Virus record (IMG/VR): IMGVR_UViG_3300025655_000176
Coordinates: 1-31,375 of that record
Direction: 5' to 3' (one strand)
DNA from: a virus
Length of the DNA: 31,375 nt
Each line of letters begins with the position of its first letter. Positions within the stretch are counted from its first letter, which is position 1. The position numbers were made by a program, and so were the translations under genes. Below the pieces are notes generated by a model. The model saw nothing but the letters and a program-made list of their open reading frames with translations. It was not told the DNA's origin and did not search any database. This document shows, one piece after another, positions 1-31,375 of the stretch.

Positions 1-759
1 AAATCGTAAGTTCTTATCTACAAAGTAACTTGATTCGCTAAATGTTATTGGTATATACAATAGATTACCAAAGCGGTCAAGTAAGACCATACGGCTATCA
101 TGACGGCCTAAAAAGCGCAGGGCTGTAATAAGATTCATGTTGTTGAAATCTTGACCAACAAATCGCATACTGTGTTTGCGTGCTAATGAATTTGTGACAT
201 TCTTTGGTCGTGAAATATTGATACTTGTCGCACCACTGTTAATTGATTCACCTAATCGTATAGCCAAATCTGTTGTACGCAATCCTACATCTATTGGTTG
301 GCCGAGTTTAACTTGACGGCCTGTAAATCCAATGCCGTTGAGCGACTTTCCTTTCATGTTACGAAGATTAACCAACACACCGTATGTTGCATCTTCAATC
401 TTGTTAGGCAACAAGCGTTGGTATGAATTATCTGCGTTGTAAATGAGCATGGGGCTGTTAGAGGCGGAAATTAAATCATCAGCAAAGAAAGGTGCTGAAA
501 GTGATGAATGGCCGGGTTTATTGTTATGCGTCAATTGCACATAAGATTCTCCTTCTACGATTTGATAATTCCTTTCGGGCATAACTTGTAATGTACGAGT
601 ATTTTTCTTTTCTATAATCACCTTTGCTTTTGGTGATTTTTGTAGGCTCATACGAGCATGATGAATAGCATTATCCACAAACACAGGCTTACGAACATGT
701 GACATAATTTCATCAGCATCAGTGTTATACCGACCAGTTGGATTTGTAAGAACGGTCAT
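1..759 (-). CDS. Tail/baseplate-associated hypothetical protein (C-terminus beyond window)
   Basis: The frame is open from an ATG at 759 to the window edge without a stop, giving 253 residues of an incomplete protein. The start overlaps the stop of the preceding small gene as ATGA, which supports translational coupling. The N-terminal part is polar and basic. The middle looks like mixed beta-strand structure (for example ATYGVLVNLRNMKGKSLNG). The visible end contains HSMRFVGQDFNNMNLITALR and a beta-rich stretch around RMVLLDRFGNLLYIPITF. I do not recognise a family. Its place right after the giant distal-tail gene suggests a baseplate, hub or fibre-associated role, but that is inference from position only. 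There is no signal peptide or membrane segment in the visible part. Confidence 0.8.
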   Translation of the reverse strand, partial: MTVLTNPTGRYNTDADEIMSHVRKPVFVDNAIHHARMSLQKSPKAKVIIEKKNTRTLQVMPERNYQIVEGESYVQLTHNNKPGHSSLSAPFFADDLISASNSPMLIYNADNSYQRLLPNKIEDATYGVLVNLRNMKGKSLNGIGFTGRQVKLGQPIDVGLRTTDLAIRLGESINSGATSINISRPKNVTNSLARKHSMRFVGQDFNNMNLITALRFLGRHDSRMVLLDRFGNLLYIPITFSESSYFVDKNLRF

Positions 760-935
760 TCAATACCATCCCCAAATTCTTCTCTTAATTCCGTTTGGCG
801 TGATTCCTTGAGAAAAGCCCATGCTTTTTTCATGGGTAATTTTTTGTCCTTTGGGGTCTTTTCCTCAAATTCACGAGCCAACTTTGGGTGTTTCGCATAC
901 ATGAAACGCCTTTGGGCTTGACTCACGAATGGCAC
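756..935 (-). CDS. Small basic phage protein (59 aa, FVSQAQRRFMYAKHP motif)
   Basis: A 59-residue gene starts at GTG 935 and ends at TGA 756-758. The stop of the upstream gene is fused to its ribosome site (TGAGGTcatGTG), and its own stop overlaps the next ATG, so it sits exactly between two coupled genes. The N-terminus, PFVSQAQRRFMYAKHPKLA, resembles a recurrent small-protein motif in tailed-phage structural regions (FVS-x-x-QRR-[FWY]-M-x-AKHP); I know it from general pattern memory, without a defined function. The second half holds MKKAWAFLKESR (residues 35-46), an AW-x-x-LK motif also found in two other proteins of this operon. The protein is highly charged and probably helical. Function unknown; a virion or assembly role is inferred from context. 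Confidence 0.78.
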   Translation of the reverse strand: MPFVSQAQRRFMYAKHPKLAREFEEKTPKDKKLPMKKAWAFLKESRQTELREEFGDGIE

Positions 936-941
936 ATGACC

Positions 942-1262
942 TCACCACTTTACTTTATCAGCCCAATATGCGGCACTCATTTTACCACGATTGATATTTT
1001 TGGCGTGGCGAGCCTTGAAAGATTCTCGTCGCTTACGGTATGATGATGATTCACCTTGCTTCTTTGGTGAACCGCTTACACCCTGTTGTCCAAATCTAAT
1101 TGTTTTGACTTGATTTCCTTCTTTAGCCACAACTACATGTGACTTTTTAGGATGGTTGGGGGTGCGCTTGGGCTTGTTAAAACCGCTTACGCCAGCACGA
1201 GCAAGGCGTGGGTCACGCTTACTTTCTTTGAGAAGCATCCATGCGTCATTCATTGGATTCAC
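942..1262 (-). CDS. Basic hypothetical protein (106 aa) with N-terminal AWxLLK motif
   Basis: The start is a GTG at 1262 that overlaps the stop of the giant gene (GTGA). It is preceded by GGTGAT at about five bases, so I prefer it to the ATG three codons later. The 106-residue product is strongly basic, with many Lys and Arg and repeated Gly/Ser-Pro-Lys stretches (residues about 25-95). It looks largely unstructured apart from its ends. Near the N-terminus it has NDAWMLLKESKRDPR (residues 5-19), which resembles segments of the next small protein and of the zinc-site protein at 25784-26404. The C-terminus ends in aromatic AAYWADKVKW. A basic protein this size could bind nucleic acid or dock on the virion, but nothing in it names a function. 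Confidence 0.82.
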   Translation of the reverse strand: MNPMNDAWMLLKESKRDPRLARAGVSGFNKPKRTPNHPKKSHVVVAKEGNQVKTIRFGQQGVSGSPKKQGESSSYRKRRESFKARHAKNINRGKMSAAYWADKVKW

Positions 1263-4200
1263 GAGGCATCACCACTATGGTCATTTGAATTGTAGGTTAC
1301 ATCTCCTTTATGGCCTTTTGGATGGAGAGATTGCGAAAAGCGGGGCTGTACATTGAAATCCATGCGCTCTTGTTTGTTTTCACCTTCTTGATGAGTACGC
1401 CTTCTTGGTGCATCCGACCTGTAATGTTCAAGTGTATTTTCACTCATAACTACACGAGTAACTTCATTGTCTAATAATGATGAATCAAATGTAGTTGTTT
1501 CTGTACCGATAATTTTTGGCCCTGTACTTTCGGGTGCGCTATCACTGGTTGAAATATCCATGACATACAACGGGGCGTATGGTGGATTAGTATCGGGATT
1601 AGTGCTACGAATATAATATCCATCACCTGCACGCCCATTGCTTACTTCATATAAGTACATACCGTATTTTCCACCACCAGTAGCGGAGAAATAATTGCTA
1701 CCATACTGTGGTGATGATGAATGAAGTTCATTGTTTGGCCTAAAAATCTCAATGTGATTTTTGTCCAACAAACGGACTGGTCGCATCATGTAAGTAATAC
1801 GCTTGTCAGTAAGGTTAGTTTGTTGGGCTGATGCATCAAATACATTTGTTTCGTATGGGTTTGATGTAATCACACCGCTTCCAAAGCCACCCCATGTATA
1901 ATCATTTAATGGTGAAACAAAGTTGCGAGTTTCAGCAAGATATGTACCACCAAGAGGATTGAAGTTTGAAGTATGGGATAACTTCATTGCACCACCTTGA
2001 GGTTGTCCAGCAAAGGACAAACTGGTGAGGTCATAATTACCAAGTGTTTGCGAACCTGCTGTATATCCGCCTTGTAAAATTACACGCTGTCCTACATTTC
2101 TGTCTGTGTGTAGGCTGTGCGCTTCTGTGTTAATTGCAATGAGGTTTTCATCAACACCCTCTATGTTTTCAGTATCAAGACCAATACGAGGACTACTGCG
2201 ACTTACTGCATCCTTGTGTGGTGAATCTCCTACAACTGTTTCAACACGGTCACTTACAACTGCTTCGGGCTTGAGCAATCCATTCTCAGCAATATTAAGG
2301 CGTGCGCTAATACCACGAGGCACTTCATCGGGCTGTAATACATCATTTCTTGCTCGGATATATCCATCGTTCAATACAGGTTCAGCCGTATGATGTGATA
2401 GCACGACACCTGTTGTATGATATGGCTCATCAAGTGCGGTAAGAACATCTTCATTGAAAGCCGTTGGATAGCGCAATCCACGACCATGACCATCATCACC
2501 TACACGATGAGCATTGGTTGGGAAATATACATCAACCAAGATGTTAGCATTGTTGTTATTGATGCTGTTTGAGCGGCCACCAAAGCGTGGTACAGTAATT
2601 CCAGCACTCACACTTAGATTGCCCGATGCATCAACTAAACCTTTCATATTTACAATTGGTGTACCGCCGTTGTATATGCGCTCGTATGGTGTGTTGAGAT
2701 ATTCATATACATCAGCCGCATCCCACGCAGGGCGAATACCGAATCCACGAACAGGGTGACGACGCACATCCTCACCACGAGTATTACCCCACCAATCAAC
2801 CAAGTAATATCCTACAGCCTCGTCAATCTTTGCGATACTCTTACCTTCACTATCGCCCCACCAATCTCGTAGTACCGTATTTTTATTGCGTAAAGTACGA
2901 ACAGGACAACCGAATGGGCGAGCAACACGCATTCCATCGCTGTATCGGACTTGCCATTCGGGTTTATCCATACCAAGCATACCGCTAAAGTTTGTTTGGC
3001 GTTCCATGATACCAATTTGGGTGTTTGGATATGTAGCATTACTTAACCCATTACCACCAGCGTAAGTCCATGTTTGAGTTTCATCTTGTACAAGTGGGCC
3101 GTGTGGATAACCAACAGATGTATTTGAACCAACAATAGCAGATTCACGGTATGCACGCATTCCATACAAAGCCCATTGTGGTTTATTGTAAGGTTGGCGT
3201 AATCCAATACGATAACCAAATGGCCGAGTGCGGGTCGGGTTGCTAATAGCATCGTAGGAGGTTTTTGTAATACCGCTTGAAACTACATATGAGCCATCAT
3301 CATCTTGGTCAATCCATACAGGGCCATCAAAAGTGTATTCTCGTGGATAATCCCATGCGGCTGAAACATACCCATACCCATCAAGACGGCTCACTAATGG
3401 CCCTCCACGAGAACCCGAAGGCCAAAAGTGGTTGAGCATTGATTTCGTAGTTGCATCAGCCGCATCCCATTGACCTCCTTGAGATTCAAAATTAGTAAGG
3501 ACATATGGATTTCCATGAGATTCTAATGCGTTAGCAGTTCCCATACTACCTGTACCATGAGTCCATACTGTAGCACCAATTGGAATCGTAGCAGTAATAT
3601 CTTCATTAACTGTAATAATTGAAGATAAATCAGTATTTACTGTATATGCTATACCTTCAATTATTATTTTGATGCCACTTCCTAAACTTGCACTTGGTGC
3701 TGTTGTGGTAATTTGCTTTGTTCCTGTATTAACGGCTAATACCTTCCTATCATCCGAACTTGAAACATTTTTGAATTTATATGGTGGCGCAGGTGTTTTA
3801 CGATGGAATGCAAATGGCCCAAGACTTGCATAATATGTTGCATCATGATAATGTATAGTTTCAAAGTGTTCGGGCATACTGTTGAGTGGTTTTTGGTCAA
3901 TGGCTGGACTGAGCCATGTACGGGAAGAATCGGAATAGTAAGTGTAAGGGCGACCAAGATTTGGATGCCATAGACAAAGGAATGCATCAGCCATATGCAA
4001 ACTATTCGTATCACGGCTACCTTGCAAAGTCTGCGGCAAAGTGCGGGTTACAATACTCGTCAAAGAATCTTTGAAAATATCACCAGCAGGGCGGAAGTCG
4101 TATGGGCGGGTAAGGCGCAATTTCGTTCCAGCAGTTAAATTACCAGTAAAGTTTGCATTGGCAACAAAAGTGAACTGTTTTGGCTGATTCATGTTTGTAG

Positions 4201-7200
4201 CATCATATCCACTACGCTCGGTGTAGGTATGCGTGCGTCGTACTCCATCACTATCTGTGTATTCTAATTTGTTTCCATAGTAAGGAACTTGTGGGAATCC
4301 ACGAGCATCATCAACAGTAACAGTGGTTGAAGTCCAACTTACAACTGTACAAACCGGGTTGAGGCTGATGTTCTCAAGCACCTCATGATACAGGTCGGGG
4401 TACAGGCTTGGGTAGCCTGCGAGTGTGATTTGACAAGCAATGCTACCTGCACTGGCTCGCAAGAACTCGTAGTAATTATCAAGACGATGATGATTAAGAT
4501 GGCGGAATCCTACAGCGTTTGAATCATCCGGCCCTGTCTTATGTACGATACTCCAATATGGTATATTCGTAGTCATGCCGGGTGAAGCAAGCGCAAACAT
4601 TTGTGGATGATATGGTAATGAGCGTCGTGTAAAGGCTGGACTTTCTGTACCCTGTACACCTAATGCGTTATACAATAGAAGTGGTGGAATGTTAGTAAAT
4701 TGACTACCGAAATCGGGGTCATGGTCAAGGATGAGTTCATTGATAAACACTTCACAGCCACGCACATCAGCCGATGTTGCTTCTGCTAATACAAGCCCAA
4801 GACCACCTGTTGCTGAATCAGCCTCACGAATACCTACGACCAATGCAACTTGTTGGCTGGTTAATTCATCTCCACCGTTTTGATGGAAACCTATCAATTG
4901 CGATTTGTGAATATTTGGTTGAATGATGATTTGATATGCACCAACTTCGGCAGGGTCGGGGAAGTGATGTCGTAGCGTATAATTTGCGGCGGCTTCAAGA
5001 ACAATCGTATGTCCACCTGCGGCATTGATAACACCAGCCTCACCTTCCGATGCAAGTACACCATAACCATCACTGCGAATCTTTGATTCAAACATAAGGG
5101 AGAATGCGCCACCGTGTATATCACTTGGGCCACTTGGTGTAGCGGTTAATGCACCAAATGTGTGAATTGTATCATATCCAAACAATTCATCAGTTAATGT
5201 AGTTGAAATATCACTCATGAGGTCATCCAAGTTTTGGCTTTCCATGAGTGAGGTTTCATGCGCCTTTACAGTGGCCGAGCGGATTGCACGATGCTTGTTG
5301 TATATTCCTTGATATGCTGGATGAGCAAAATGACCGGGCATCATAGCCATTGTTGGATTGACGAAATGATGACCCATACGAGGCAAAGCAAGTGGACTCA
5401 TTTTAGGAATTGAGTATATGTCATGTCCAAGTGTATCTGCTAATACTAAATTGGTGAAATACATTGTATGAGCCATATCGGGGCTGTTTCCACTTACTTC
5501 GGCATGGTCACGCAATCTGCGTGCGGCAAAGAATCGTGTACTACCAGCAGGGATGTAGTATGATGGTACAACTTTGAATGATGAAATATCACCAGTAATT
5601 AAATCAGCGAAGTCGGTATCTCCTACACAACCAGTAAATGTTGAACCACTAATACCAGTAAATGAGGCTACACCACCCCTGTCCGTTGTTGGGTTATACA
5701 AACGCAAGAACTTACGCCCATCACGGATAGATTCGTTGTATAACGATGCATCAACTGTACCGCTCACGGTCAATGTTGTACCACTATATGATACAGCCGT
5801 GAGGTCATTGTTTGTAATACCGTTAGCATGAGTGTAATATGTAGGGTATCGGTGACTGTGCGTATTCCCATTCTTGGTGATGTGGAAGAAAAGAGTACGG
5901 TCATGTAACTCGTAAGATGTTTCTAATGGTGCGTTACCAGTAGCAGACTTCCAACCCTTGTAAGTTGAATCGGGGAATGCTTCGCCTGTAGCATTTTGAC
6001 TAATGTGTTCCCAATTGTGGTCGCTAAATGTTCCATTAAGGCGTGGCCCTTTTGTTTCATCAGTAAATAAATGGCTGATGCTGTTACTTGAAATTGGTCG
6101 CATCATACCGCCTGTTCCCATTGTTTCATTTTGGTAGGCTTGTAATCGGTCAAATCCGCTACGAATAATGAGATTGCCGGGAATAGTATCGGGGTCGGGT
6201 AAGCGTACTTTGAGGTTAGGCTCTACACCACTACCAGCGATGGCTGGTGCTAATCCTTCGGCACTTCTGTCCGATACCGAATTGAAAGTGCGAATGATTG
6301 TGCCGAATGGTGAGCCACCCTCAATGATATGAATTTGGCCTGTATCATCTTGCACTTGCATTTCTTCAAACTGCATTTCTTCATTTGGAATTTCTAATAC
6401 ATTTCGTAGTTCATCGGGATGGCGAGCCGCAATTTGTGGGTGTGCTAATTCTTGTGCTTGTATAATTGGGAACATAGCACTGTTGGTTGTTTCAAATGAA
6501 AATCGGTTGATACCGTACAATTTTTCTCCCATCGTATATGCTGTTCCACCGCTTACTCGTGTAATAAAAGGTACAGCACCAAGACCACGAGCATTTACAG
6601 CAGGGAGTGAAAGATTACCACCATCCATACGCTTCCAAACAATATGCTCAACTGAGAAATTCTTTGCTGGTGAATTTTGTCGCAATTTGAAAGCGTTAGT
6701 ATCACCAAGCCAATATGTTGCATCGTCACCATAACGGTCTAATTCAGCATCCGTACTTGTAGTTACATAATCAGTAATTAAATTCCGCTCAATATCAGTT
6801 GTATCTTCTAAAAAGAAACTGCCCGGACTTTCATCTAAGTCAAAGAATAAATCACCAGTTTTGGCAAAACATGGTTCTGCATTAAACAATAAAGAATCAG
6901 CAATGATTGGTGCGTGGAAATTAAAAGCGGCTGATGGAATATCACCTGTTGGTAAATCAAGTGAAGCAATCAAAGCCTCAATGTTTGGCCCACCATGAGC
7001 AGGTGCAACAAATCTATCTACACTGTGTATGCGCTCATCCCATTGTGCTGTACCAGCAAATGTAATTGCTGTGCTTGCGGCTACTGCATCACCAGTCTTT
7101 GATACGACAGCCAACCAATCTCCCATTGCTGTAATTCCATCACGGTCACGCTTTGCTACTAATGGCATTTCACTCTCGTATGAAATAACAAGGAATCCAC

Positions 7201-10200
7201 GAGCGAATACGCCTTGAGGATGATGAAGAGAGCGTGGTACTGCATCAGCATCCGATAGGTGTAATGGAACTCTTTGGTAATCGGAATCTTCTGCTGTTTC
7301 ATAAGCGGCGGCTGTGTATGTATCGTAAGTCCAAGTGTACGGAGTTGTCAATATAGTATCGGAATTAGAACGACCAGTCAATGGTGACATGGATTCGGGG
7401 CTGTTTTTCATTGGAGTAAAATGAGGTAAATGACTAAATGTACTCATGAAACTTGAGGCTGAACCATATGGCGAAAAGCCCAACATTGGATGCCAAGCAC
7501 CAAGTCCAGCACCATATCCTTCACTACCTACTTTGAGTGAGTTAAGATATGAATAACGCTCACCAGCCCATCCTACAGCACCTACAGGGCGTGTACGGTC
7601 AATTGCATCAACGACACCACTAAAGTGTACATGAGTCATATGGTTGCGTGTTGAATCATTGTAGTTGTTGTAATAGTGTACACCAGCCTTACTCCATACA
7701 AATACTTTAGTTGCGCCGGGTGAAAGTGATGGCCCTGTAAGAGTAGAACCACCACATTTGTCAGCCCATGTTTGTGCATCTTCAACTACAGGCATTCCAC
7801 TAATTTTATTTGGTGCAAGCCAAAATCGCACATACCATGTACCTCCACTTTCATACACTTCACGAGAATGATATGGTGCAAATGCACCACCACTACCGCT
7901 TGGTGTACGGCCATTATCGGTACGAATCCAACCACTCGCAGGTAATTGTTCTAACTGAGTTTGCTTGTTACCGCTTCCAAGTATGGCTTCAACAAATGCA
8001 GGTGATGTAGGTGAAGTTGCTAAATTTGAAAGTGTACCACCGTAGAAATATGAACTGAATGTTAATTCAACCCATCCATATCGGTCTTGACGCATTGCAT
8101 TACCCATACTTGGCATGAATGTACCACCCATTGCCTTGAGTGCGCCTTTACCGGGATTTTCATTAATGGCTTGGCCGATGATAGTCGCTAACTCTTCACC
8201 GTTTTGACACCGTGTAGCATCAATTGCGATGATTTCACGGTCAAAGTCATCGGCTGTTTCACCTAACAAACCATCTAAGATAGATGTAGCAAGAGGGCCG
8301 GAAACACGGAAAGCAGTAGGCTGAACATCATTGTTATGCTTAACAACTACATAGTTGCTTTTTTCCATTTTGGGATTGAATGCTATTTGATTATCAAGCC
8401 AGTTACCACCGGGAAGATAACCTCCATCCATGTGAAACATCATATCAGCACTTGATGCTATACCGTAATATGATACAGCACAATGACGATATGGATGTGC
8501 TTTAGCAAATTCACCTTCATTGTTTGTGTTAATCGTAAGGATTGTTCCAAAATGGTCGCCGTAATGATAACCATGTTCGGGGCGTTGTGCCATACCGTAT
8601 GTTGTACCCGAATCGTCACCGATGTTTGGAATACCTTGAGGTGGCGACCAATTCAATGTTGTTCGCCAATGGAAGCGTTGAGTACGAGATTGATATGTAG
8701 TGCTTGGAGGGCCGTATTCTCCATCGGGATTTTTAATTTCATTTGGTAAAAATTCACCCGATGGAACTTTACTCCAACTATTTCCTGTTGTTACAACATA
8801 ACCGGGATGGGGTTCAGTTTCACCAAGCGTTCCAGTAGCCGTTTCATTGAATGGGAATGATTGACCCGGCCCGTATATCAAATAAGTTGTAAAGTAAGGT
8901 GTACTTGTTTTATGGTCAGTGTAGCGTGCAGTTTGATGCGGCATACGCATAACAAGTGGAATTGGTCGTTGTCGTACAATACCAGCCGTATATCGTGCTG
9001 ATACATGTGCTGGATTACTTGAGTAATCAACAAGTGTGTTTAAATCTAAATCGGGCGACAACAGGCTGTCTTGATTAAATGCTGGTGAATTAATTGTACC
9101 CCGATGTTGGTTAAGGAATGGTGTGGCGGGGAAGAAAGCAAGTAATGCATTACAATCTACCATAGCATATGCTGTGCTGATTTCATTTGCATTTTGAATA
9201 CCAGCCGTACCAGTTGGGCCTGTTGAATACGGATGCGTGTAAAATGAAGAGTAATCATTCTTTGACCCATCATTTACATCCAGTACGACACCACTAAATC
9301 CACCACCAAAGTATAACGGTACGCTATGGTCATTACTGTCATGTCCACCCTTGAAATAAGTAATTGGCTCGCTTTCAATACTACCGTACAAACGAATACC
9401 GCTAAAATGACCATCATTATGAATCATTAATAATCCATTATTGGTTAATGTTGAACCTGCTTGATATTCACCACGCCAAGCCTCATTTGCTTCTTGAATA
9501 AAAATTTGTAATCGTTTTAATGCTACTGCTGGATTTTGCTTTGGTGTGCCTAATGCTTGTTTGAGTGTACCGTGAAATATAGTCTTTTTATCTCCAAAAG
9601 AAAGTAACCTATCTCTATTTGTACCACTTACTGATAAAGTAGCACTTTCTACACCAGCGGGGATTAATAGTGCCGCAACAGAATTGGCTAATTCAAAAAT
9701 ACTGTTTGAACCATCCCATTTATTATAGATTACAGCCGTATTATCAAGGGCTGGTGTAATGTGGTCGCCACTCTTTCCTGTAAAACGAATACCCTTCAAA
9801 TTATTTCGCCAGCGTTTTGTTGGTACTGGGTCATTGTATGAATCAACAAGTATTGGAGTTGGAGTATTTGCGTGATAACCACGAGCCTTTGTACGAATTT
9901 GTAAAACAGTATTTGGGATATATCCACATCCAAGATGCTTGTGATTATCATCAATATCCTCATCACTATACGGTTTATTTACAGTCACGCCTCCGTTTGA
10001 TACTGTCCAATTTCCACTGGCAGACTTACTCAATTTTTGATATTCACCATATTCTAAATGGGGTGCGGCGATACCTAAATCACGATATACCTTAGCACTA
10101 AACATCTTTGAAAGTGGTCGTGCGCCACGCTGAGGATTATGCGCTCGGATTTTAATTGCATCTTCCGATATACCCCATTCCGAATATTTTCGGCCATCGG

Positions 10201-13200
10201 GCGCATACATATCACGACAATTAAACGATACACCTTCAATCACATTTGGATTATCTAAATTGATAGCGGCGGCAGTAACAGTGGCTAATAATTCATCAGT
10301 AATTAAAGTCGTCATGTTAAGGCGTGGTGAAATTAATCCACGAATTATATTGTTAGATGTTGCAGGTAATGTTTGAGAAGTAGCCGCCGTAGCCGCCGCC
10401 CCAAAACTGCTAAGATAATGGGAAATAGCAAATGATGCACCTCTCACTCCATAAAATACATGTGTACCAGTTGCACTATTTTGTGTTCGGCTTTCATAAG
10501 ATACAGTATTTCCAAGTGAACCTTTTACTGTTAAACCTGCATCATAAAGAGGGTCGGTAATTTGTATAACACCGTTTTCTTTTGGAAAACCAAGATAACC
10601 AAGTATATCAGCAACATTATCAAAAGATGTGGTGGCTGTATGGAATGGATTTTCAAGTTGTACTGTAATCGTATCATTTGAACTATCCCATTTAATTTGA
10701 GAATCAACTCCTATACTTGGTGCATACATCCCTCTCCATTGATTACCACGCCACAATGCCTCAGTCATATCAGTTTGAGGTGTAAGACGACCTGTAGCAT
10801 CACCAGCACCAATCATGTGCGCCCCAATCGTAAATCCACCTTGTCCTGCATCACGGTCATCAAAATAAATACAAATTTCTTCATCAATTGTAGATGGAAT
10901 AGTTGTCAATTCATTTGCATACGGTGCATCCATTTCACGATATATGTAGCGTATTCCATACCCTGTACCACGATGGTCGGTGAAACGCAATCCGTATAAT
11001 GTCGCATCACCAATTTTATCTTGTGCTAATTCAGTAGGATTAATATGAGTTGAATATGAATTATTGGCTGTAGGTGAAGTAGCACCGTATAGAGTAGTTT
11101 CACCATATCGCTTGTTAAATTCTATATCACCAATACGACCAAGCCCATATTTTCCAGCAATTGGTGAAAAACCGGGTACACCTGCTTCAACAAGCCCACC
11201 AAAATTAATTCGTGCTACAGCCTCCTTACCTGCTCTTAATCCCTTAACAAGAGCAGTAGAAGGACTTTGAGTTTCAAACGATTCTTCATTGACACTGTTA
11301 TGTGAAATACCGCCAAGATGGGCTGAAATGTTTCGCCCAATTGGATTTGTTGTATCATCAGTTCTTGGTGCAATATCATGATTACTGGTAAATTGTTCAC
11401 TTGTTTCTTCTTGTACGATGTATTCTCGTAAAGTGGTAACGGGTGCAAATGGTCGCCCATCTTTGTTAAGCGGCATTGGTGCAGGGTGCATATTTTCACC
11501 CATGATTTCATCGGGTTGCGCCCAAAAGTTTCGGAATCGGCCACCATGACCAATTAAAAATTGAGGTTGATATGAAGATTGACCTTTACTATTATCAAGC
11601 CAAACGCAGAAATTACGACCCGAAGCACCGGGTATTGTTGAATGGATAATGATTGAGAACCCTTCATTTCCATTAATGTCCTCAACAACTCGCCCAATAT
11701 GCGCTCGTACATATCCCATATGTGAGCCTCTATCATGAGAATCAAATGCAATGTCACCATACCAAAACGGTGCAGGGTCATAAGTTGAACCTGTAGCGGC
11801 AAAATCAGCATTGATATGTGCTGATGTAGGGTCTTTGTTTTCATTAACAATATCTTGGCGTACACCAATTCGTGTAAGGTCAAGTCTTTCACTTTCACCC
11901 GGATATTGCTGTGATGGTCTGCGAGCATGTGTACGACCATTTGGTGCGCCACCTTGATTGATAAGTCGGACAATTTCTCGTGCCGCCGCTTCAATATCTG
12001 TTACTCCTTCCTTAACACCAACTTCACCTAAGTCAATAGACATACGACGCACGAAATCCATTTCACTCCAATGTTTCAAATGTTGAAGTCGGCTTTCTTC
12101 ATGGTCGGCTAAGTCAAGAGTGATATTTCTTTTACCCTTTAAACAAAGATATGCTGAAATGACACGAGTACCATCGGGTGTATCAAAAAGCGTGCTTGAA
12201 TCTTTCAAACTGTACAAATTAGGGTCTTGGTCTGCCCTGTATTTCTTTAATGCTGAAATTAAATTGTCGCCCTCTTTTTCTTTACGAATTAAATTATGTG
12301 CTTGGTTGGCGTAATATACTGATGATACGGCTTGTTGAACTCGTGGAAGGGTGTTGTCACCAACGGTATGTGTGTTAGATGTGCCTTCATGATACAAACC
12401 AGTGTGTACAAAGTGTCCGTGACCAGCACCACGCCTTGTAGGATTATTACCAAGAGTGAATGGATTTTCAAGTGTGTATTTTATTTGTGTATCAATAAGT
12501 GTGCTACCAAGTAAATCTTGAGAAATATTATTTGGAATATTATGTGCATACGCACTTTCAATAAATTTAGATTGTTGAGTTGAGCGCATGTAACGATTTT
12601 CTGTTGGGAAACCATTTGCTACATCTATTTGTGTAGTAAAGTAATGTGGCGCACCACCGTTTGTACTGATAAGGTATTTGTCAAGTTTAAGGTCGCCACC
12701 GTCATATGGAATGTTGCGTGTGTAACCAATTGAAGGTGTTGCCGCACTGGATTGAACTTGCATGTGTAAATCATGGAATGCAATAAATTCACGGTCATGT
12801 GCTACATCATATAACAAGACACGAGCGTGACCATCTGTTGAAAGATACGGGTCAATGTACGCTATTGTAGGTGCTTGCGTTGCATCAAGACCCATTGATT
12901 CGTAATTCATTTCAATGGTTTTATTGACATGTTGTGCAAAATTTTGTGCTGTTTCAAGACATGAATTTCCAATCAAGAAATTTTCAAGTGGAATTGAATC
13001 TCTTGGTCGCTCGGCTAATTGGCCTTGACCACCATTGAATCCTTTCCATACTAATGCGTCATTAAACACTCCACGACTTTTTGCGAATAACCCTTCAATA
13101 GCATGTGGATTATTCATTGTCATATTCATCCATACGGTGTCACCGTTTCGCAAACCACCTTGTGCATATGGGTAAAGCCAACTACGATTTAATACAGCAT

Positions 13201-19150: not shown

Positions 19151-20376
19151 CAGTATCGCCCCCTCATTGTTGAACCACCAATGTTTCGTGCCATCTCTTG
19201 TTGTATCATGTTGCCAATCTCACGAGCGAGCGCACGCTTATCTGTACGGTCTGTAATACCCGATGCATTAACATTAATGTTGAATGTACTCCCTTTACCA
19301 CCAAAGCCCATTTCGCCTGCTTTTTCAAGCGGCACTACTGCTTCTCTACCCGAAGCGTTGTCACCCAAAAGAGCAAGTGTAGGGCCATTTACAATACCAC
19401 CCTTAGCCAGTGCTGGAATACTCCAATCCGATAAATCAAACCCAATATCAAATGGGTCAAGACCGGGCAAATCAATGGTCTTAGAGAAACTAAATGAAGC
19501 GAAAAAATCATTTATTAACGAAACAAGTCCATTAATTGGGAATTTTAAAACACCCGCTAAACCATTTCCTAAGTCAGTAAAAAATCCAGTTAAAGAAGTT
19601 GCAACATTTGCTAATGTACCCACTGGGTCGGTAAGCAAATCCCATCCAAAACCAACAAGGTCAATCCCAAAATCAATTATATCACCAATAGATATACCAA
19701 CTAAACCATTGAGTATATCAAGAATAAATTTGAATGGTTGAGGTAAAGTACCAATCACAAAATCAATTCTATCACCGATACTAAATCCTGCAAATGCACC
19801 TTCTCCGACAAAGAAATTAACAATCTCCGTTAGCCAATCGGGTAATGTAAAAGAAAAGACATTTTCCCAATTTGGTAAATCAAAAGTAAATAAATCAGTC
19901 CAGTAAGCCGTAGTGAACATTTCGGGCATCGTGAAACTAAATACGCTATCCCAATCGGGCATACTGAAATCAAATAAATCAGTCCAATATGCCTTAGTCA
20001 AAATTTCGGGCGTATCGGGTAACATATCCCATAAGGCTGTTGCCCATTCATCAATTGTAATACCTATACCACTAAATAATTCAGCCCACCAATCTATTGT
20101 TAATACCGCAGGCATATCGGGTAACATATCAAAAAAGCCACTGAAAAATGCTATTGTAGTTTCACCGATTGCGGTTAAAACTGTATCAAAACCATTTTTG
20201 ATATTCTCCCAAGAAAGATTATTAATAGCATCACTCATTGGTTGAATAACTGTATCGTAAAACCACTTTCCTAAATTTTTCAACGCATCAATCGCCATTT
20301 GGCCTGCGGCTTTGAAACCCGGCCCTATCTGTGATACCATGCTGGACATGGATGACAGCATGGAAATCAATGACAT
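19150..20376 (-). CDS. Tail tape measure protein (408 aa)
   Basis: The protein sets tail length inside the tail tube. The clearest mark is the C-terminal block ALAKGGIVNGPTLALLGDN followed by GREAVVPLEK (residues about 322-352), which matches the GGI-V-x-x-PT-x-x-x-x-GE-x-GPEAV-PL motif of many tape measures. The N-terminus is helical and hydrophobic. Residues about 84-182 hold tryptophan-rich repeats of about 32-34 residues (MLPDMP, MLPDTP, MPEMF; AYWTDLF occurs twice). Several glycine- and isoleucine-rich hydrophobic segments follow (residues 195-290). At 408 residues it is short for a tape measure; by the usual rule of about 1.5 angstrom per residue it predicts a tail near 60 nm. It starts at ATG 20376 with GGAGTGA in front, whose TGA is the stop of the preceding chaperone frame. 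Confidence 0.93.
   Translation of the reverse strand: MSLISMLSSMSSMVSQIGPGFKAAGQMAIDALKNLGKWFYDTVIQPMSDAINNLSWENIKNGFDTVLTAIGETTIAFFSGFFDMLPDMPAVLTIDWWAELFSGIGITIDEWATALWDMLPDTPEILTKAYWTDLFDFSMPDWDSVFSFTMPEMFTTAYWTDLFTFDLPNWENVFSFTLPDWLTEIVNFFVGEGAFAGFSIGDRIDFVIGTLPQPFKFILDILNGLVGISIGDIIDFGIDLVGFGWDLLTDPVGTLANVATSLTGFFTDLGNGLAGVLKFPINGLVSLINDFFASFSFSKTIDLPGLDPFDIGFDLSDWSIPALAKGGIVNGPTLALLGDNASGREAVVPLEKAGEMGFGGKGSTFNINVNASGITDRTDKRALAREIGNMIQQEMARNIGGSTMRGRY
19834..20127 (-). repeat. Degenerate Trp-rich tandem repeats inside the tape measure gene
   Basis: Three diverged units of about 32-34 codons begin near residues 84, 118 and 150. Each starts with a [LM]-P-[DE] turn, followed by a W-[AT]-[ED]-L-F core. 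In the later two units a P-[DN]-W-[DE]-x-VFSFT segment follows. The repeats are visible at protein level and partly at DNA level. Confidence 0.75.
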
Positions 20377-21472: not shown

Positions 21473-23374
21473 TCAGTATTTTGGAATAGTATCTCGTGCA
21501 ATAACCTTGATGGTTTTTGGCATGATTTTGAGTTGTGACTTCATTGCACCTTTATCTTCGGGAATTTGTAATGGTGCTTCTGTAATCACATAATCATCAA
21601 TAATCAACAGCATACGCTCAGTTTGGCCTGTGGTAGTTGTTTTCTCAAAGTCAATGCGAATTTGATTAGCAGTTGAAGCATCAGCGTTAGTGCTGTACAT
21701 TTGTGCTGAACGCATTTCGTGGAAGAAAATTGGGTCATCAACAATAATTTCCATACTCATGTCGTAAGTTGTTTGACCTTCAACCATGAGTGAAGTGTTT
21801 CGTGAGCCACCAAATGGTACTTGTTCTGTTGCACTACTAACGCTGTTTTGTCCTTTTATGACATGGAATGATTGCATACCCATTTGTCCAGTTAAAGTAA
21901 AGTTCAACACTTGAGCAACTTGAACACCAGCCATGTTGATTGTACCGTTATAGAACATAAATGGTTTTTGAGTGCATGGCGCGATACCGGAAACAAATCG
22001 TTTTGTGTCTGTATTTGCTGTGTCATCAAACATACGATGAGCGGCGTATCGGGTAATTGGTGTTCCTTCTAAACGGCCTGTATCAGTATAACATAATGCT
22101 GAATTAAAATTCACAGCCAAGCGAAGAGCGGCATCATTGTCAGTTGTAAGGGTGAAATCAGTGACTTTACATCCACGAAATACACGAGATAACTCTTTTG
22201 AGTCTGTAGCACTACCATCAGTTGCACCTTCTCCCGAATCTACATTTAAACGGCGTTGTGAAACTTCAAGACTGAATGAAGGTTGATATGTGTTTGTGTA
22301 CAGCAAGTGTGTTACAGCATTACTAATCACAGCAGATGAAGATACTGCTGGTGGATTTGTACCCGATACTGCCCAATCGTAAAGATACACAGTAGTACCA
22401 GCGGCATGAGAATAAAGAAGTGGCTCATCAAGATACAATTTACTTGTGCCATCTTTACCAATAATTCTTCGTACTTCTGTTTTATCAGCATTATCAAAGG
22501 CAATACTGGCAAAAGTACCAGCCCATGAGCCTCCATCAGCCTCATGAGTTGTTGTAACTGGAACTTCATTTGTATCTACAATAACCAAATACATATCCTT
22601 ATTGTTAGCAACATTGGATGCATCATCTAAGATTAAAAAGGATTGACCTGCTTCTGCGGCATTACCACTGGTAATAGCGGTTTGATAACCTGCATCGGGT
22701 GCGGTAGTTGCGGCTACAACTTCTCCACCAAGACAATATTTGAGCCAACGAGCAGAATGCATGGCTACCTCAAATGAGCCACCTTCGGTAATGAATTTAC
22801 CCGGCACTTGAACACTGGTATCTCGGCCAAGACCGACAACATGGAAACGCTTCAAATCTACTTTTGTTTCGGGTACAGTAAGTGCGTTTGCAATACCTAA
22901 AAATTGGTCTGTAAGCACTGATTCAGTTCCCGAACCTTGAGTCATTGCATTATCAAAAGGGGGTGTTCTGTAAGGAAGAATATGTAGGTTAATTCCCGAT
23001 TGATTGTATGTAGTAGCAGTTGAAAGCATCTTAGGTGAAATTTTAATTGTGTTACCTTGTTGATACACGATAGTAAAAACACCAGCCGTATCATTAGCAT
23101 TAAGGTCGCTTCCTGTTTGTGAAAATTTAACTTGAGAGCCAACTAACATACCACGAGGATATTTTAGTTCATATGTGTCGGGTGAACCCGATACAGTTTC
23201 AAAAATAGTTGTATTGCCGTTTGCAGGGCCACTTACACCAGCAAATACAATGATTGAATGGTCGTCGCCGTGACTAATTGTAAAATTAGAGTCGGCATTT
23301 GCACTAATTGACAATCCCACCTCCGGTGCAAATGACACTTCTGCTAAATCACCCTTGTACACTGTTGCTGGCAT
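21473..23374 (-). CDS. Major tail (tube) protein, enlarged (633 aa)
   Basis: The protein is the probable tube subunit of a non-contractile tail. Residues about 172-215 (VDLKRFHVVGLGRDTSVQVP then GKFITEGGSFEVAM) resemble the conserved beta-sandwich core seen in tail-tube families. Further core strands appear toward the C-terminus (LNFTLTGQMGMQSFHVIKGQ; MSMEIIVDDPIFFHEM). At 633 residues it is two to three times the usual tube size. The extra length comes from an N-terminal region of about 140 residues and an insert around residues 225-345 that look like surface beta domains. No sheath gene accompanies it, which points to a siphovirus. It starts at ATG 23374 after TAGGTGA, where TAG is the stop of the tail-terminator gene. 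Confidence 0.85.
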   Translation of the reverse strand: MPATVYKGDLAEVSFAPEVGLSISANADSNFTISHGDDHSIIVFAGVSGPANGNTTIFETVSGSPDTYELKYPRGMLVGSQVKFSQTGSDLNANDTAGVFTIVYQQGNTIKISPKMLSTATTYNQSGINLHILPYRTPPFDNAMTQGSGTESVLTDQFLGIANALTVPETKVDLKRFHVVGLGRDTSVQVPGKFITEGGSFEVAMHSARWLKYCLGGEVVAATTAPDAGYQTAITSGNAAEAGQSFLILDDASNVANNKDMYLVIVDTNEVPVTTTHEADGGSWAGTFASIAFDNADKTEVRRIIGKDGTSKLYLDEPLLYSHAAGTTVYLYDWAVSGTNPPAVSSSAVISNAVTHLLYTNTYQPSFSLEVSQRRLNVDSGEGATDGSATDSKELSRVFRGCKVTDFTLTTDNDAALRLAVNFNSALCYTDTGRLEGTPITRYAAHRMFDDTANTDTKRFVSGIAPCTQKPFMFYNGTINMAGVQVAQVLNFTLTGQMGMQSFHVIKGQNSVSSATEQVPFGGSRNTSLMVEGQTTYDMSMEIIVDDPIFFHEMRSAQMYSTNADASTANQIRIDFEKTTTTGQTERMLLIIDDYVITEAPLQIPEDKGAMKSQLKIMPKTIKVIARDTIPKY

Positions 23375-26404: not shown

Positions 26405-26410
26405 AATAAT

Positions 26411-26710: not shown

Positions 26711-26719
26711 TTAACCACC

Positions 26720-26902: not shown

Positions 26903-26913
26903 GAGGAATCACC

Positions 26914-27258: not shown

Positions 27259-27269
27259 ATTTTTTCACC

Positions 27270-27593: not shown

Positions 27594-27603
27594 TTAACAC
27601 ACC

Positions 27604-28017: not shown

Positions 28018-28047
28018 ATTTTTTCACCTCTATGTTTTTTTTCAACC

Positions 28048-29148
28048 TCACTTTAGGTCACGGATTGAACCGTGTCCACCAAAGAAAGTAGTCCAAAGTT
28101 CACCCATAGTGCGGTACATACCTTCTTGTCCAAGTCGGTTGATTGCAAATGGGTCGCCTGTTTCAATACCACTCTCAAAGTATTGGGTTGGAATTGCTGT
28201 GCTAAAGTACATGTAGTCAGTGTCAAGGAAATACATACGGCTCAAAGTGTCGGTTTGAACATCCTTTGATGGGATGATTGGAACACCGTTGTATGTAGCA
28301 ACGATAAATCCAGCCTCAACACCGGGAACACCCTTCACACCGTTGTAGGTTGGCGTAACACGCTTCTCTTCCATGAATCGCTGTTGGCTTTGAAGGAGTT
28401 GTTGCAAGCGCATCAAAGTGTCGTAACCAGTAAGGATAACCTTTGGATTTCCACCACGAGTCCATGTCTTTTGGAACAAGTCGTCAAGTTGGTCAAGTGA
28501 AAGGTTTCGGTCTGTACCGGAGTTTTGGTTGTGTTCTGCAAGTGACCATGAGTTTGCACTTCGGTCAATGGAGTAAATGTCCTCGTCTGTACCAGCAGAT
28601 GCACCAACAGTTACACGGTCAATGGATTCAAAGTTGTTACCAGCCGCAGTTGCTTTGTCAGTAGTAAGCATCTTGTTGATGTGTTCTGCGTGGTGCTTAC
28701 CCATTTCTTCTTTCAACACTGCACGAATGTCGCCAAGTCCGTCATCTTTGTCGGAAAGGAACATTGCGGTTTCGCTCATGTCAAAGGTGTGAACAACAGT
28801 CTTTGGTTTTGCGGCAATGTGTTGGAAGGTTGGTTTGGTTGTGTCGGGAAGGGTTGCGTTCTCAGCAACACCGCCACCAACAGTAAAGGAAGGGCGTGCA
28901 GTAATAACTCGCCATCCACTGCGTTCCCACGGTCGCTTTGGTAGGATGCTGAATGCGTTGAACTCTTGGTTCAATTGTGACCAAACTTTGCGCCCATAGA
29001 TTGCTTGGTATGTACCAGCAGTTGTGGACAACATTGGTGCGTCAGCCTTGAGCAACTCGCTACCGGAGTAGGAGTAGCCCATAGCGTTACCTGCGCCATA
29101 GTAGTACCGTTCCATGTCTGTAATATTTCGGATATAATCTCGTGCCAT
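28048..29148 (-). CDS. Major capsid protein, HK97 fold (366 aa)
   Basis: The 366-residue protein forms the icosahedral shell. The pattern matches HK97-fold capsids: a short N-terminal arm, an E-loop-like region (ENATLPDTTKPTFQHIAAKP), a long spine-helix segment (GDIRAVLKEEMGKHHAEHIN, residues about 139-158), and a C-terminal axial domain with NGVPIIPSKDV and DTDYMYFSTAIPTQYFESG. It lies right after the protease/scaffold gene, the standard order. It lacks a long N-terminal delta domain, so an independent scaffold would be needed; one is provided by the internal start at 30012. The start ATG has GAGGTGAAAAAAG in front, one of the best ribosome sites in the window. The gap to the protease gene is only 24 bases. 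Confidence 0.93.
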   Translation of the reverse strand: MARDYIRNITDMERYYYGAGNAMGYSYSGSELLKADAPMLSTTAGTYQAIYGRKVWSQLNQEFNAFSILPKRPWERSGWRVITARPSFTVGGGVAENATLPDTTKPTFQHIAAKPKTVVHTFDMSETAMFLSDKDDGLGDIRAVLKEEMGKHHAEHINKMLTTDKATAAGNNFESIDRVTVGASAGTDEDIYSIDRSANSWSLAEHNQNSGTDRNLSLDQLDDLFQKTWTRGGNPKVILTGYDTLMRLQQLLQSQQRFMEEKRVTPTYNGVKGVPGVEAGFIVATYNGVPIIPSKDVQTDTLSRMYFLDTDYMYFSTAIPTQYFESGIETGDPFAINRLGQEGMYRTMGELWTTFFGGHGSIRDLK

Positions 29149-29161
29149 CTTTTTTCACCTC
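29146..29161 (-). promoter_or_regulatory. Strong ribosome site of the major capsid gene
   Basis: The minus strand reads GAGGTGAAAAAAGATG. Almost the same sequence, GAGGTGAAAAAATATG, precedes the start codons at 28017 and 27258. These are the only three genes in the window with this spacing and A-rich linker, and they are the likely high-copy head proteins. Confidence 0.75.
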
Positions 29162-29172
29162 TATAATTTTAT

Positions 29173-29998
29173 TTATTCCCCTCGCAATGTTCGGTGGGCA
29201 AGGGCGTGGACTTCATCCCAACCCATGTTTGCCAAGTCTTGCGTAGAGGGAACATCAATGTTACTGAATGACTTTTGGATGGTAGCAGATTCAATGCCAC
29301 TTCCAAGATTGTCAATTCGCTCGGATAGTGCTTCAATGGACTTCACGATTTCCGACAAAGGTGCTCGTGCGTCAAAGGCGGCTTTCTCAGCCTCAGCCTT
29401 TGCAACTTCCATTTCACCGTTAAAACGGTTTGCGAATTGTGTTTCAAGGTCAGTTCGGAAAGATTGTTCCAAAGCGGCGGCTTTGTACACTTCGTAAGCG
29501 GCTTCAATATCAGCGTCGCTCACACTTTCTGCGTTAAGGTAGCCTTTGGACAACTTTGCTTCTCCGAGTGCGCCAGCAGGTGTCTTACCACCGCTTGAGG
29601 TCACTGCGTTGATTGCACCAGTTGAAGGTGAACCCATTTCTTGTCCACGACCACGAACTTGTCCGGCGAAGTAATCTGCGCCATCCACTGCGTCGGGGTT
29701 GTCAAATCCACCAAGTTGAGCCTTTTCCAAGTTATCAAAGTGGTTTCGTGCGGCATCCATATCAACACCAGCAGACTTGAGGGTGTTTTCCATCCAGTTC
29801 AAGTATTCTGCTGAGATGACATCGCTGTACTCTTCGCTCTTTTCCATTTCCATTTCATCACCTTTTTCGGTTTTCTTTTCTTCTTTGTCTGCACCCTTTG
29901 GCTCTTCTTTCATGGCTTCTTTAAGAGCAGGAGGCATTTCCCCCTTCTCCATTGCATCCAATCGTGCTTCAAGGCGTGACATAATCTCGTTCAAACTG
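29173..29998 (-). other. Scaffold region of the protease gene (coiled-coil, acidic)
   Basis: Residues about 178-451 of the fused protein form the scaffold part. They contain coiled-coil-prone stretches (NEIMSRLEARLDAMEKGEMP), a strongly acidic and lysine-rich segment (KEEPKGADKEEKKTEKGDEM), and a C-terminal coiled coil (YEVYKAAALEQSFRTDLETQ). Internal scaffolds of HK97-type heads are usually of this kind and are cleared by the protease. Confidence 0.75.
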
Positions 29999-30012
29999 TT
30001 TTCTTCTGTCAT
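29173..30012 (-). CDS. Scaffolding protein from an internal start (279 aa, nested in the protease gene)
   Basis: Within the protease gene, AAGGAGG at 30021-30027 stands eight bases before an in-frame ATG at 30012 (Met173), exactly at the end of the protease domain. Translation from it would yield the 279-residue scaffold alone, with N-terminus MTEENSLNEIMSRLEARLDA. Nested scaffold genes of this type are known, for example lambda Nu3 within C. In this window the ribosome site is stronger than that of the full-length start. The separate product has not been shown; it is inferred from motif, spacing and domain boundary. Confidence 0.75.
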   Translation of the reverse strand: MTEENSLNEIMSRLEARLDAMEKGEMPPALKEAMKEEPKGADKEEKKTEKGDEMEMEKSEEYSDVISAEYLNWMENTLKSAGVDMDAARNHFDNLEKAQLGGFDNPDAVDGADYFAGQVRGRGQEMGSPSTGAINAVTSSGGKTPAGALGEAKLSKGYLNAESVSDADIEAAYEVYKAAALEQSFRTDLETQFANRFNGEMEVAKAEAEKAAFDARAPLSEIVKSIEALSERIDNLGSGIESATIQKSFSNIDVPSTQDLANMGWDEVHALAHRTLRGE

Positions 30013-30528
30013 GTTTGTGTCCTCCTTAAGTATGCGAAATTGTGCTTCGGGGTTGATACCCTTCTCACAAATCGTCACCTCATGCAATTCCATTTTTGAA
30101 ATCTCTTGGTAGTCGCCTTTTTCCACATCGGACTTTCGCACTCTCTTGAATGCTTGGCCTCCAATGGAGAATCCACGAAGGTTGCCCTTGCGGATTTCAG
30201 CGGCTACTTCACGAGCCTTCTCAATATCATTGCGGAGTTTTACTACGACGAACATTCCGGTGTCATCCACTTCGGATTTCCACATTCGCCCATTTGTATC
30301 AATGTAACTGTCAATCACTTCACCAACTTGAATGTTGGAGTGTGCCAGTTGCACATTTCGGTACTTCTCACTCTTCATAAAGCCGTCAAAGGCATCTCGC
30401 AAAGCACCACGAGTAATTAGGTCGCCTTGCTTATCCACAAGTTCAACCGATGCGTAACCAGCAACAACCAAGTCGTTACTACTCTTGAGAAGAGTAATAC
30501 CGTCATTGGGTCGTTGCACTGTGAGCAT
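29173..30528 (-). CDS. Prohead protease (XkdF-type, S78-like) fused to scaffold (451 aa)
   Basis: The N-terminal 165 residues match the XkdF-type prohead serine protease. VVAGYASVELVDKQGDLITR opens the fold, His63 lies in QLAHSN, and Ser121 lies in LRGFSIGGQAFKRV; these are the expected catalytic pair. ELHEVTICEKGINPEAQF follows, with Glu150 a possible third residue. The C-terminal part is a coiled-coil scaffold. After assembly the protease cleaves scaffold and its own products inside the prohead. The start is ATG 30528 with GGAG seven bases upstream. A nested start at 30012 can produce the scaffold alone. The next gene is the capsid protein, giving the classic protease-scaffold-capsid order. 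Confidence 0.93.
   Translation of the reverse strand: MLTVQRPNDGITLLKSSNDLVVAGYASVELVDKQGDLITRGALRDAFDGFMKSEKYRNVQLAHSNIQVGEVIDSYIDTNGRMWKSEVDDTGMFVVVKLRNDIEKAREVAAEIRKGNLRGFSIGGQAFKRVRKSDVEKGDYQEISKMELHEVTICEKGINPEAQFRILKEDTNMTEENSLNEIMSRLEARLDAMEKGEMPPALKEAMKEEPKGADKEEKKTEKGDEMEMEKSEEYSDVISAEYLNWMENTLKSAGVDMDAARNHFDNLEKAQLGGFDNPDAVDGADYFAGQVRGRGQEMGSPSTGAINAVTSSGGKTPAGALGEAKLSKGYLNAESVSDADIEAAYEVYKAAALEQSFRTDLETQFANRFNGEMEVAKAEAEKAAFDARAPLSEIVKSIEALSERIDNLGSGIESATIQKSFSNIDVPSTQDLANMGWDEVHALAHRTLRGE
30021..30027 (-). promoter_or_regulatory. Strong internal ribosome site AAGGAGG for the nested scaffold
   Basis: The minus-strand sequence reads AAGGAGGACACAAACATG. The site is eight bases from the in-frame ATG at 30012, placed at the junction between protease and scaffold domains. 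It is one of the closest matches to the anti-Shine-Dalgarno consensus in the window. Confidence 0.8.
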
Positions 30529-30552
30529 TAATTCTCCGACTTACTGTAATAG

Positions 30553-30576
30553 TATTTATAGGCATCGTCATTGACG
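30553..30576 (-). promoter_or_regulatory. Possible TATA-like promoter element and CGTCA/TGACG inverted repeat
   Basis: In the 39-base gap before the protease gene, the minus strand has TATAAATA (30553-30560), 24 bases before the ATG. Just upstream is a CGTCA-A-TGACG inverted repeat (30566-30576) that overlaps the stop of the preceding gene. An archaeal TATA box here would put the transcript start almost at the start codon. No good bacterial -35 box is visible. This is a weak candidate. Confidence 0.25.
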
Positions 30577-31375
30577 AGAAGCGATTGGCTGGTCATTGTC
30601 ATAGTCTATAGAGTAATTTTCACCCTCGTCTGTTGTGACCTTAATGTGATTCAGTCGCTCTTTTTCTTCTTCTTTTCTTTTACCAGTATTTACTTTATCT
30701 CCATCGTAATCGGGAAGGTTAGCCTCATCAGTTAATTTAGTAGGGCCGTGTGGTGATTCTTGAGGTGTTCCTACATCAATTCCAAGACCTTTTGGCCCTG
30801 TCCATGTCAATTTTTCTTTACTAATTTTGTCTAATGCACGCTCAATAAGTTGCAGTGCTTTCTTTGTTTGATTCGGTTTGAGAATTCGCTCTTCATCATC
30901 TTCTTCAAGAATACCTGCACTTTCTTCTTCCATTTGCTCTTTTGTGGGTTTCTTTGGCATATCAAGTTCCGATTCTTTTGAAACATATCCTTTCATCATT
31001 AAGGGTGCTACAGCCGACCAAAATGGCATAAGACTTTCAGCCAGTATTACTGGATAGTCCGATTTGAGCATATCTCCCATTGTACTCTTTGGGGAATGAA
31101 TGCACCATACACCCTCCATATCTTCAATTTCGTATTTTACTACATCAACATCTTTCAAAACAATTTGAAGTTGATTATTTTGAATTTCAATATCATGTGG
31201 AATTAAAATAGGGCTGAAAGATTTTGTCATGAGGTCAAGAGATTCTGTGCTGGCCGCACCTTCACCTTCACCTTGACTTTCAATTTCTTTGACTTGTACA
31301 TTATACACTGGGCGATTTTTACGATTTTTCTTTGAAATACCCGTAATAGATGCACGAACAATGTCACCAACTTTG
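30568..31375 (-). CDS. C-terminal part of an unidentified protein (start beyond window; portal-position or ligase-like OB end)
   Basis: The frame stays open to the right edge; the GTG at 31308 is internal, since at least 22 in-frame codons precede it (KVGDIVRASITGISKKNRKN and on). The visible 268 residues begin with an OB-fold-like stretch (VGDIVRASITG, then PVYNVQVKEI), which vaguely resembles the C-terminal OB domain of ATP-dependent DNA ligases. Next comes a more ordered section (HDIEIQNNQLQIVLKDVDVV, MPFWSAVAPLMMKGYVS), and then a long charged tail (MEEESAGILEEDDEERI; KRKEEEKERLNHIKV). Position before the prohead protease is usual for a portal gene, but I see no portal signature. I cannot decide the family from this fragment. 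Confidence 0.7.
   Translation of the reverse strand, partial: KVGDIVRASITGISKKNRKNRPVYNVQVKEIESQGEGEGAASTESLDLMTKSFSPILIPHDIEIQNNQLQIVLKDVDVVKYEIEDMEGVWCIHSPKSTMGDMLKSDYPVILAESLMPFWSAVAPLMMKGYVSKESELDMPKKPTKEQMEEESAGILEEDDEERILKPNQTKKALQLIERALDKISKEKLTWTGPKGLGIDVGTPQESPHGPTKLTDEANLPDYDGDKVNTGKRKEEEKERLNHIKVTTDEGENYSIDYDNDQPIASRQ

Follow-up and report, generated by a model that had tools for sequence, protein, structure and literature searches.

The stretch of DNA analysed here (the window) is the entire virus record IMGVR_UViG_3300025655_000176, 31,375 bases with a GC content of 0.419. Five palindromic tetramers, GATC, AGCT, TCGA, CTAG and ACGT, are missing from it altogether, and we describe this loss of short words in the window, in its magrovirus relatives and in the DNA of the presumed archaeal hosts. 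Minus-strand genes of the window include those for the major capsid protein, the head maturation protease and a tape-measure-like protein, all recognised by PHROG matches. The features referred to below are as follows.

1259..17959, minus strand: giant open reading frame (ORF) of 5,566 amino acids, free of the five words across 16.7 kb
19150..20376, minus strand: tape-measure-like tail protein (PHROG match, E 3.5e-15), also free of the five words
21473..23374, minus strand: possible tail tube protein (weak PF18906 match, E 3.3e-5, below the curated cut-off), which carries the lone CGCG
21980..21983, no strand assigned: the sole CGCG of the window
28048..29148, minus strand: major capsid protein (PHROG match, E 5.7e-64), the query with which relatives were fetched
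29173..30528, minus strand: head maturation protease (best PHROG match phrog_23555, E 1.3e-14)
29173..30528, minus strand: the same residues, with a weaker PHROG match to phrog_1530 (E 1.8e-10), which is named DNA methyltransferase

An exact count gave zero copies of each of the five words on both strands, as the initial annotation had reported from reading the sequence. Its estimate of more than 100 expected copies apiece also holds, base composition giving 115.7 for each word; a second-order Markov model expects 102 GATC, 102 AGCT, 78 TCGA, 40 CTAG and 74 ACGT. These are the only tetramers of all 256 without a copy in the window. CGCG, which the initial annotation did not list, is a sixth avoided palindrome, with its single copy against a Markov expectation of 46. 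The remaining ten palindromic tetramers have 42–274 copies, with CATG, GTAC, TGCA, AATT and others close to expectation, in agreement with the statement that palindromes are not lost in general. The codon- and dinucleotide-preserving shuffle that had been proposed as a check was run on the 18 ORFs of at least 300 bases (40 shuffles; proteins, codon usage and codon-junction dinucleotides kept). It predicted 28 GATC, 83 AGCT, 55 TCGA, 20 CTAG, 78 ACGT and 17 CGCG, where the same ORFs contain none of the first five and one CGCG. Codon use is not the explanation, because synonymous shuffles predict many copies. CCWGG, GCWGC and several more words of 5–6 bases are likewise missing from the window.

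The capsid protein is 35.5–37.6% identical to the capsids of HVTV-1, HCTV-1, HCTV-5 and their kin, and it identifies the window virus as a relative of the magroviruses and, more distantly, of the Druskaviridae haloviruses. A scan of viral contigs with this protein returned 512 stretches that encode a related protein, and the 80 best of these were retained. In one relative of 95 kb (G003), the structural genes lie on one strand, while the opposite strand encodes a B-family polymerase, an ERCC4 nuclease, a PD-(D/E)XK protein and a Cpn60 chaperonin. The B-family polymerase/ERCC4/Cpn60 set is the magrovirus set in the profiles of the International Committee on Taxonomy of Viruses (ICTV; PMC12999244, PMC10768690), which link magroviruses to Poseidoniales or marine archaea. 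Because of this gene set and the capsid lineage, we regard the window as a piece of a magrovirus, a tailed virus. It holds the structural side only, the replication module and the opposite transcription being seen in G003. The window has the magrovirus/Druskaviridae capsid lineage that serves as a criterion for Magrovirales; the size criterion is 90–110 kb, the window is a 31-kb fragment, and its relatives reach 95–109 kb. Positions 818–31375 match part of a longer record (G001) at 99.9% identity. The family of the giant ORF is present in 15 of 21 clustered records, with a median of 5,580 amino acids; a Pfam scan of three pieces of the window's copy gave no match.

The loss is a property of the whole virus group. 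GATC and AGCT are at zero in 20 whole records of 46–108 kb (1.39 Mb), and in their ORFs of at least 300 bases the codon null expected 1462 GATC, 3405 AGCT and 1152 CCWGG, all three of which were absent. Loss of other words is more restricted among these records: CGCG is lost in 18, CTAG in 13, ACGT in 10, TCGA in 4 and GCGC in 2. Among 156 capsid loci, which contain some near-duplicates, CCWGG is absent from every one (80/80, 30/30 and 46/46 in successive sets), GATC from 152 (80/80, 28/30, 44/46) and AGCT from 150 (79/80, 28/30, 43/46; one locus, L009, has one copy). The redundancy can be gauged from two records, G008 and G016, with 28.6 kb in common at 99.98%, and from the first 80 loci, 20 of which are identical to another locus over 60 bases at the midpoint; loci of the later sets of 30 and 46 were admitted only if their 60-base stretch was new, a crude filter. 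Forty-six polymerase loci, some from the same records, likewise contain no GATC, AGCT or CCWGG, against 2026, 1700 and 350 expected.

Beyond this trio, TCGA, ACGT, CTAG, CGCG, GCGC, GTAC and many words of 5–6 bases are gone in particular clades, among the longer ones GCWGC, CAGAG, CCAGA, GAGAC, CTCAG, GATATC and TTCGAA (20 records, codon null). In a 26-record tree, the loss of TCGA defines a single clade, to which the window belongs, and the fewest changes required are one each for GATC, AGCT, TCGA, GCGC and GTAC and four each for CGCG, CTAG and ACGT. Clade-specific losses arise at several places in this tree. GTAC is an example of such a loss, with no copy against 287 expected in G405 (L649-L652), 81 in L073, 44 in L603 and 31 in L608. 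The initial annotation had described a fingerprint of a single virus confined to 4-base palindromes; neither limit applies, as a whole virus group carries clade-specific sets that include 5–6-base and asymmetric words.

The number of avoided words ranges from 4 to 33 per record in 15 magrovirus records, and the same test yielded 6 in T7, 2 in lambda, 9 in HTVC008M, 4 in SPO1, 14 and 15 in two haloviruses, 5 in vir519, 1 in vir335 and 5 in one control contig; the words overlap, so that their number is not a number of enzymes, and they may include parts of one degenerate site and some noise, in the comparison phages as well. T7 served as a positive control, from which GATC, CCWGG and CTGAAG were recovered. 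Between 2 and 6 palindromes are missing in each of 77 magrovirus loci. The corresponding figures for 82 comparison viral loci, drawn with an arbitrary word, are 61 without any loss, 17 losing one, two losing two, one losing three and one losing six. One control contig of 14.9 kb, L328 (IMGVR_UViG_3300032332_001372), lacks ACGT, AGCT, CCGG, GATC, GGCC and GTAC and keeps 41 CCWGG.

The manner of the loss is also informative. Sixteen asymmetric words are low in both the sense and the antisense orientation wherever they are avoided. In 39,560 bases of intergenic DNA there is no GATC (107 expected), no AGCT (100 expected) and no CCWGG; CTAG, ACGT and TCGA are nonzero in this pool because it includes clades that keep them. 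Across loci, the ratio of observed to expected copies is nearly all-or-none for GATC, AGCT, ACGT and TCGA, ACGT for instance having 35 loci below 0.1 of expectation and none at 0.1–0.5; for CTAG and CGCG more loci take intermediate values. The pattern is that of site avoidance: words are missing beyond the nulls, in both orientations and in coding as well as non-coding DNA, with similar words unaffected. These features are easier to reconcile with cutting of double-stranded DNA than with an effect on translation or mutation.

Self-methylation by the virus was considered and rejected, since methylase families are rare in these viruses: PF01555 was found in 1 of 32 records, PF02086 in 1 of 47 and PF00145 in 1 of 47, in overlapping record sets that include many fragments, with G378-G405 outside the PF01555 search. 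The few viruses that do carry the words are instructive. GATC stands at 0.29 of expectation in G378 (L634-L639) and at 0.41 in G379 (L642-L643), the 119 copies in G378 (417 expected) being distributed evenly over the genome; D12 and C5 methylases were not found in either, the N6/N4 family not having been sought there. Two further loci (L725, L741) have GATC at about 0.65 of expectation, and five (L487, L491, L735, L736 and L738) have AGCT at 0.83–0.94. Where pressure eases, sites seem to come back, an indication that selection is still at work in the other viruses.

We then turned to the presumed hosts, the Poseidoniales (Marine Group II). In 140 pooled loci with 835,524 coding bases, evaluated with the same kind of null as the viruses, AGCT (0.58 of expectation) and GATC (0.66) rank first and second in depletion among 136 tetramers, CGCG (0.78) ranks fourth behind TATA, and CCWGG (0.76) comes second among the 450 pentamers that contain no palindromic tetramer. 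Taken locus by locus, GATC falls under expectation in all 126 loci with enough expected copies and AGCT in 110 of 117. AGCT and GATC are again first and second in the Poseidoniaceae sample (18 titled loci and 30 loci fetched via a methylase), where CCWGG stands at 0.67, and in the Thalassarchaeaceae sample. The corresponding values in 19 control loci are 1.12 for AGCT, 0.97 for GATC, 0.93 for CGCG and 0.98 for CCWGG; these come mostly from large genomes of the same phylum sample, of presumed taxonomy and picked solely for their size of 2.3–3.8 Mb, which exceeds that of most Poseidoniales seen. Three of 78 loci (L180, L209 and L220) were excluded from the host counts, and L180 and L220 were moved into the control. 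Three palindromes are lost in 85% or more of the viruses, and in hosts their depletion exceeds that of random palindromes (permutation p 0.0028). The proposal that the missing words might link virus and host therefore gains support, as the core words missing from the viruses are also scarce in the presumed hosts and not in the control set.

A search for matching enzymes in Poseidoniales, as the initial annotation had suggested, gave candidate GATC and CCWGG systems in a few genomes and no recognised AGCT system. D12 methylases are present in 7 of 47 genomes, N6/N4 methylases in 67 of 115 and C5 methylases in 17 of 115. In two genomes (G055 and G044), a D12 methylase adjoins a DUF6996/DUF6997 protein; the methylase of G055 belongs to the Dam family, and its nearest solved structure is the methylase of the DpnII system. 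Proteins of this DUF type lie beside DNA methylases in three Poseidoniales genomes.

L422:3095-3874, minus strand: DUF6996/DUF6997 protein
L423:3341-4108, minus strand: DUF6996/DUF6997 protein
L439:3797-4663, minus strand: DUF6996/DUF6997 protein

They are perhaps restriction endonucleases, with GATC as the candidate target beside the Dam-family methylase. A C5 methylase adjoins a protein weakly like EcoRII in G093, an Eco47II-family protein in G053 and a BglII-like protein in G063; EcoRII cuts CCWGG. One host system behind the whole trio was rejected as a candidate, the D12, C5, DUF6997 and EcoRII-like genes being too scattered. The Eco57I family is matched in 201 of 292 host genomes; most of the matches listed score about 40–55 bits and lie largely in a frame of about 650–750 amino acids, and from these low scores and the common frame we set them aside as apparently one conserved gene unrelated to restriction-modification. 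Matches above 70 bits, in at least 19 genomes, are plausible Type IIG enzymes. Of the 18 genomes with Poseidoniaceae or Poseidonia in their titles, 15 encode a conserved N6/N4 methylase (L274:1255-2211, plus strand; matches at E 1e-132 or lower); the 10 with Thalassarchaeaceae or Thalassarchaeum in theirs give no strong match, and the remainder of each group contains one weak match. No endonuclease was recognised beside this methylase in the ORF lists of two loci, whose neighbours were not scanned against families. Its family-level spread parallels the depletion of CCWGG.

Taken together, these data make it highly probable that the many restriction systems of the hosts have driven the removal of restriction sites from the magrovirus genome. 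Poseidoniales would carry many different restriction-modification systems varying from strain to strain, and a virus genome without any copy of a recognition word would escape cutting. Host nucleases would then be the selective agent, with the many enzymes acting over the host population and not within one cell. Reaching the zero state would need common enzymes, and remaining there only rare encounters: a genome still rich in sites gains little from losing one of them, but a genome at zero pays heavily for a single new site, the cost being roughly the fraction of restricting cells. Such lopsided cost implies that even rare enzymes could keep a large population at zero, and the all-or-none values of several words fit selection of this kind. 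The earlier suggestion of multi-enzyme pressure on the whole genome is thus upheld as to the loss, which exceeds the nulls; restriction enzymes as its cause are what we infer. A single host with several 4-base systems, as had been envisaged, was not found, the candidate matching systems being scattered and rare.

Several observations weigh against this reading. The rarity of matching systems (DUF6997 in 3 of 292 genomes and EcoRII-C in 1 of 292, with no AGCT system recognised in the Poseidoniales genomes searched) is a real tension and its weak point, which may be eased by the lopsided cost described above and if assembled and single-cell genomes lack defence islands. CCWGG, lost in every virus seen, is at 1.01 in Thalassarchaeaceae, a value based on a small sample of 46,740 coding bases. 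When all 16 palindromes are considered, loss in viruses and depletion in hosts show no significant correlation (rho -0.41, p 0.11), because CTAG (1.03), ACGT (0.92) and TCGA (1.03) are not or hardly depleted in hosts though lost in virus clades; TATA, conversely, is depleted in hosts and not lost in viruses. Control viruses, moreover, also lose GATC and AGCT more often than most words (6 of 82 each; CCGG, 8 of 68), which makes both common targets in any case. What ties the window virus to Poseidoniales is the published assignment, which word depletion fits.

The viruses might instead encode their own sequence-specific nucleases against host DNA and be protected from them by the absence of sites, not by methylation. 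A core viral enzyme would give a near-universal trio, virus methylases are indeed rare, and nucleases resembling restriction enzymes are listed for Apasviridae by the ICTV (PMC12999244). However, the many words in clade-specific sets would require many enzymes, depletion of the same words in hosts would be unexpected, and no restriction-enzyme family appeared in 30 G003 proteins (Pfam) or in 20 PHROGs/PADLOC scans, which divergent enzymes could escape. A core viral restriction enzyme, sought as a specific candidate, was not seen in these G003 scans, covering part of its 101 ORFs. We consider this origin improbable, and quite unlikely too is a narrower version in which unrecognised magrovirus nucleases account for CCWGG, AGCT and GATC and the clade-specific words are host-driven on top. 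Another possibility is a relic, an ancestor purged once whose zero state has been inherited without present selection. Matching host systems do look rare today, and a single change each suffices for GATC and AGCT on the 26-record tree; given the long branches, with capsid identity down to about 70%, sites should nevertheless have returned by mutation, as they did in G378 (GATC) and in the AGCT-bearing loci, which leaves the relic with little probability.

The agent could also be some other host system that reads short words and is not classical restriction-modification. The conserved methylase without a recognised adjacent endonuclease, in those 15 of 18 Poseidoniaceae or Poseidonia genomes, speaks for it and suggests that part of host defence may be unusual, but several recognisable gene pairs of restriction-modification type are present in the same archaeal order, and we hold such an agent to be very unlikely. 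Codon preference, mutation bias or general avoidance of palindromes could draw on the facts that phages commonly avoid palindromes and that many of the virus genomes studied here are short of some 6-base palindromes. It is extremely unlikely to suffice: shuffles keeping codons and junction dinucleotides expect many copies, CATG, GTAC, TGCA, AATT and others remain near expectation, asymmetric words disappear from sense and antisense alike, and the core words are absent from intergenic DNA as well.

Purging under host restriction, the reading we favour, places magroviruses beside known cases. The relatives of the window share with Magrovirales the capsid lineage, the B-family polymerase, the Cpn60 chaperonin and the ERCC4 nuclease, in records of up to 109 kb. 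In the literature searched, which leaves most subscription papers outside, we found no report of word loss in magroviruses (including PMC12999244 and PMC10768690) and no paper on Poseidoniales methylomes or restriction systems. Word loss in the viruses, matched by rarity of the core words in the presumed hosts, suggests a long defence conflict in uncultured organisms, and an uncultured virus genome may serve as a readable record of the restriction specificities used by its uncultured hosts. The group-wide loss of CCWGG, GATC and AGCT, together with their depletion in Poseidoniales, can be tested as a fingerprint of the host, and it predicts which specificities the enzymes of these marine archaea should have.

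Site avoidance is known in lytic phages and was surveyed by Rusinov et al. 2018 (PMC6286503). Like T7, which is without GATC, CCWGG and CTGAAG, magroviruses are double-stranded DNA viruses that have fully lost Type II words; unlike T7, with its 6 avoided words against 4–33 per magrovirus record, they have lost three words almost group-wide. The main pattern in the survey is elimination of orthodox Type II sites (PMC6286503), from which magroviruses differ in losing asymmetric words too; if these are Type IIS or IIG targets, they would extend avoidance beyond that pattern. The distantly related haloarchaeal tailed viruses, those without a Dam methylase, are described as purged of GATC (Liu et al. 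2021, PMC8651126), in a passage that concerns haloviruses and GATC only and not magroviruses. We find GATC at 0 of 174 expected in HVTV-1 and 0 of 194 in HCTV-1 (41 kb each). HCTV-1 (L419) is also without CATG, 0 of 75 in the 41 kb examined. These haloviruses differ from magroviruses in keeping AGCT, with 90 of 101 expected copies in HVTV-1 and 124 of 152 in HCTV-1. Site avoidance itself is an established strategy; what is new in magroviruses, as far as our searches show, is the near-universal loss of three words, the clade-specific sets added to it, and the matching depletion in the presumed hosts.

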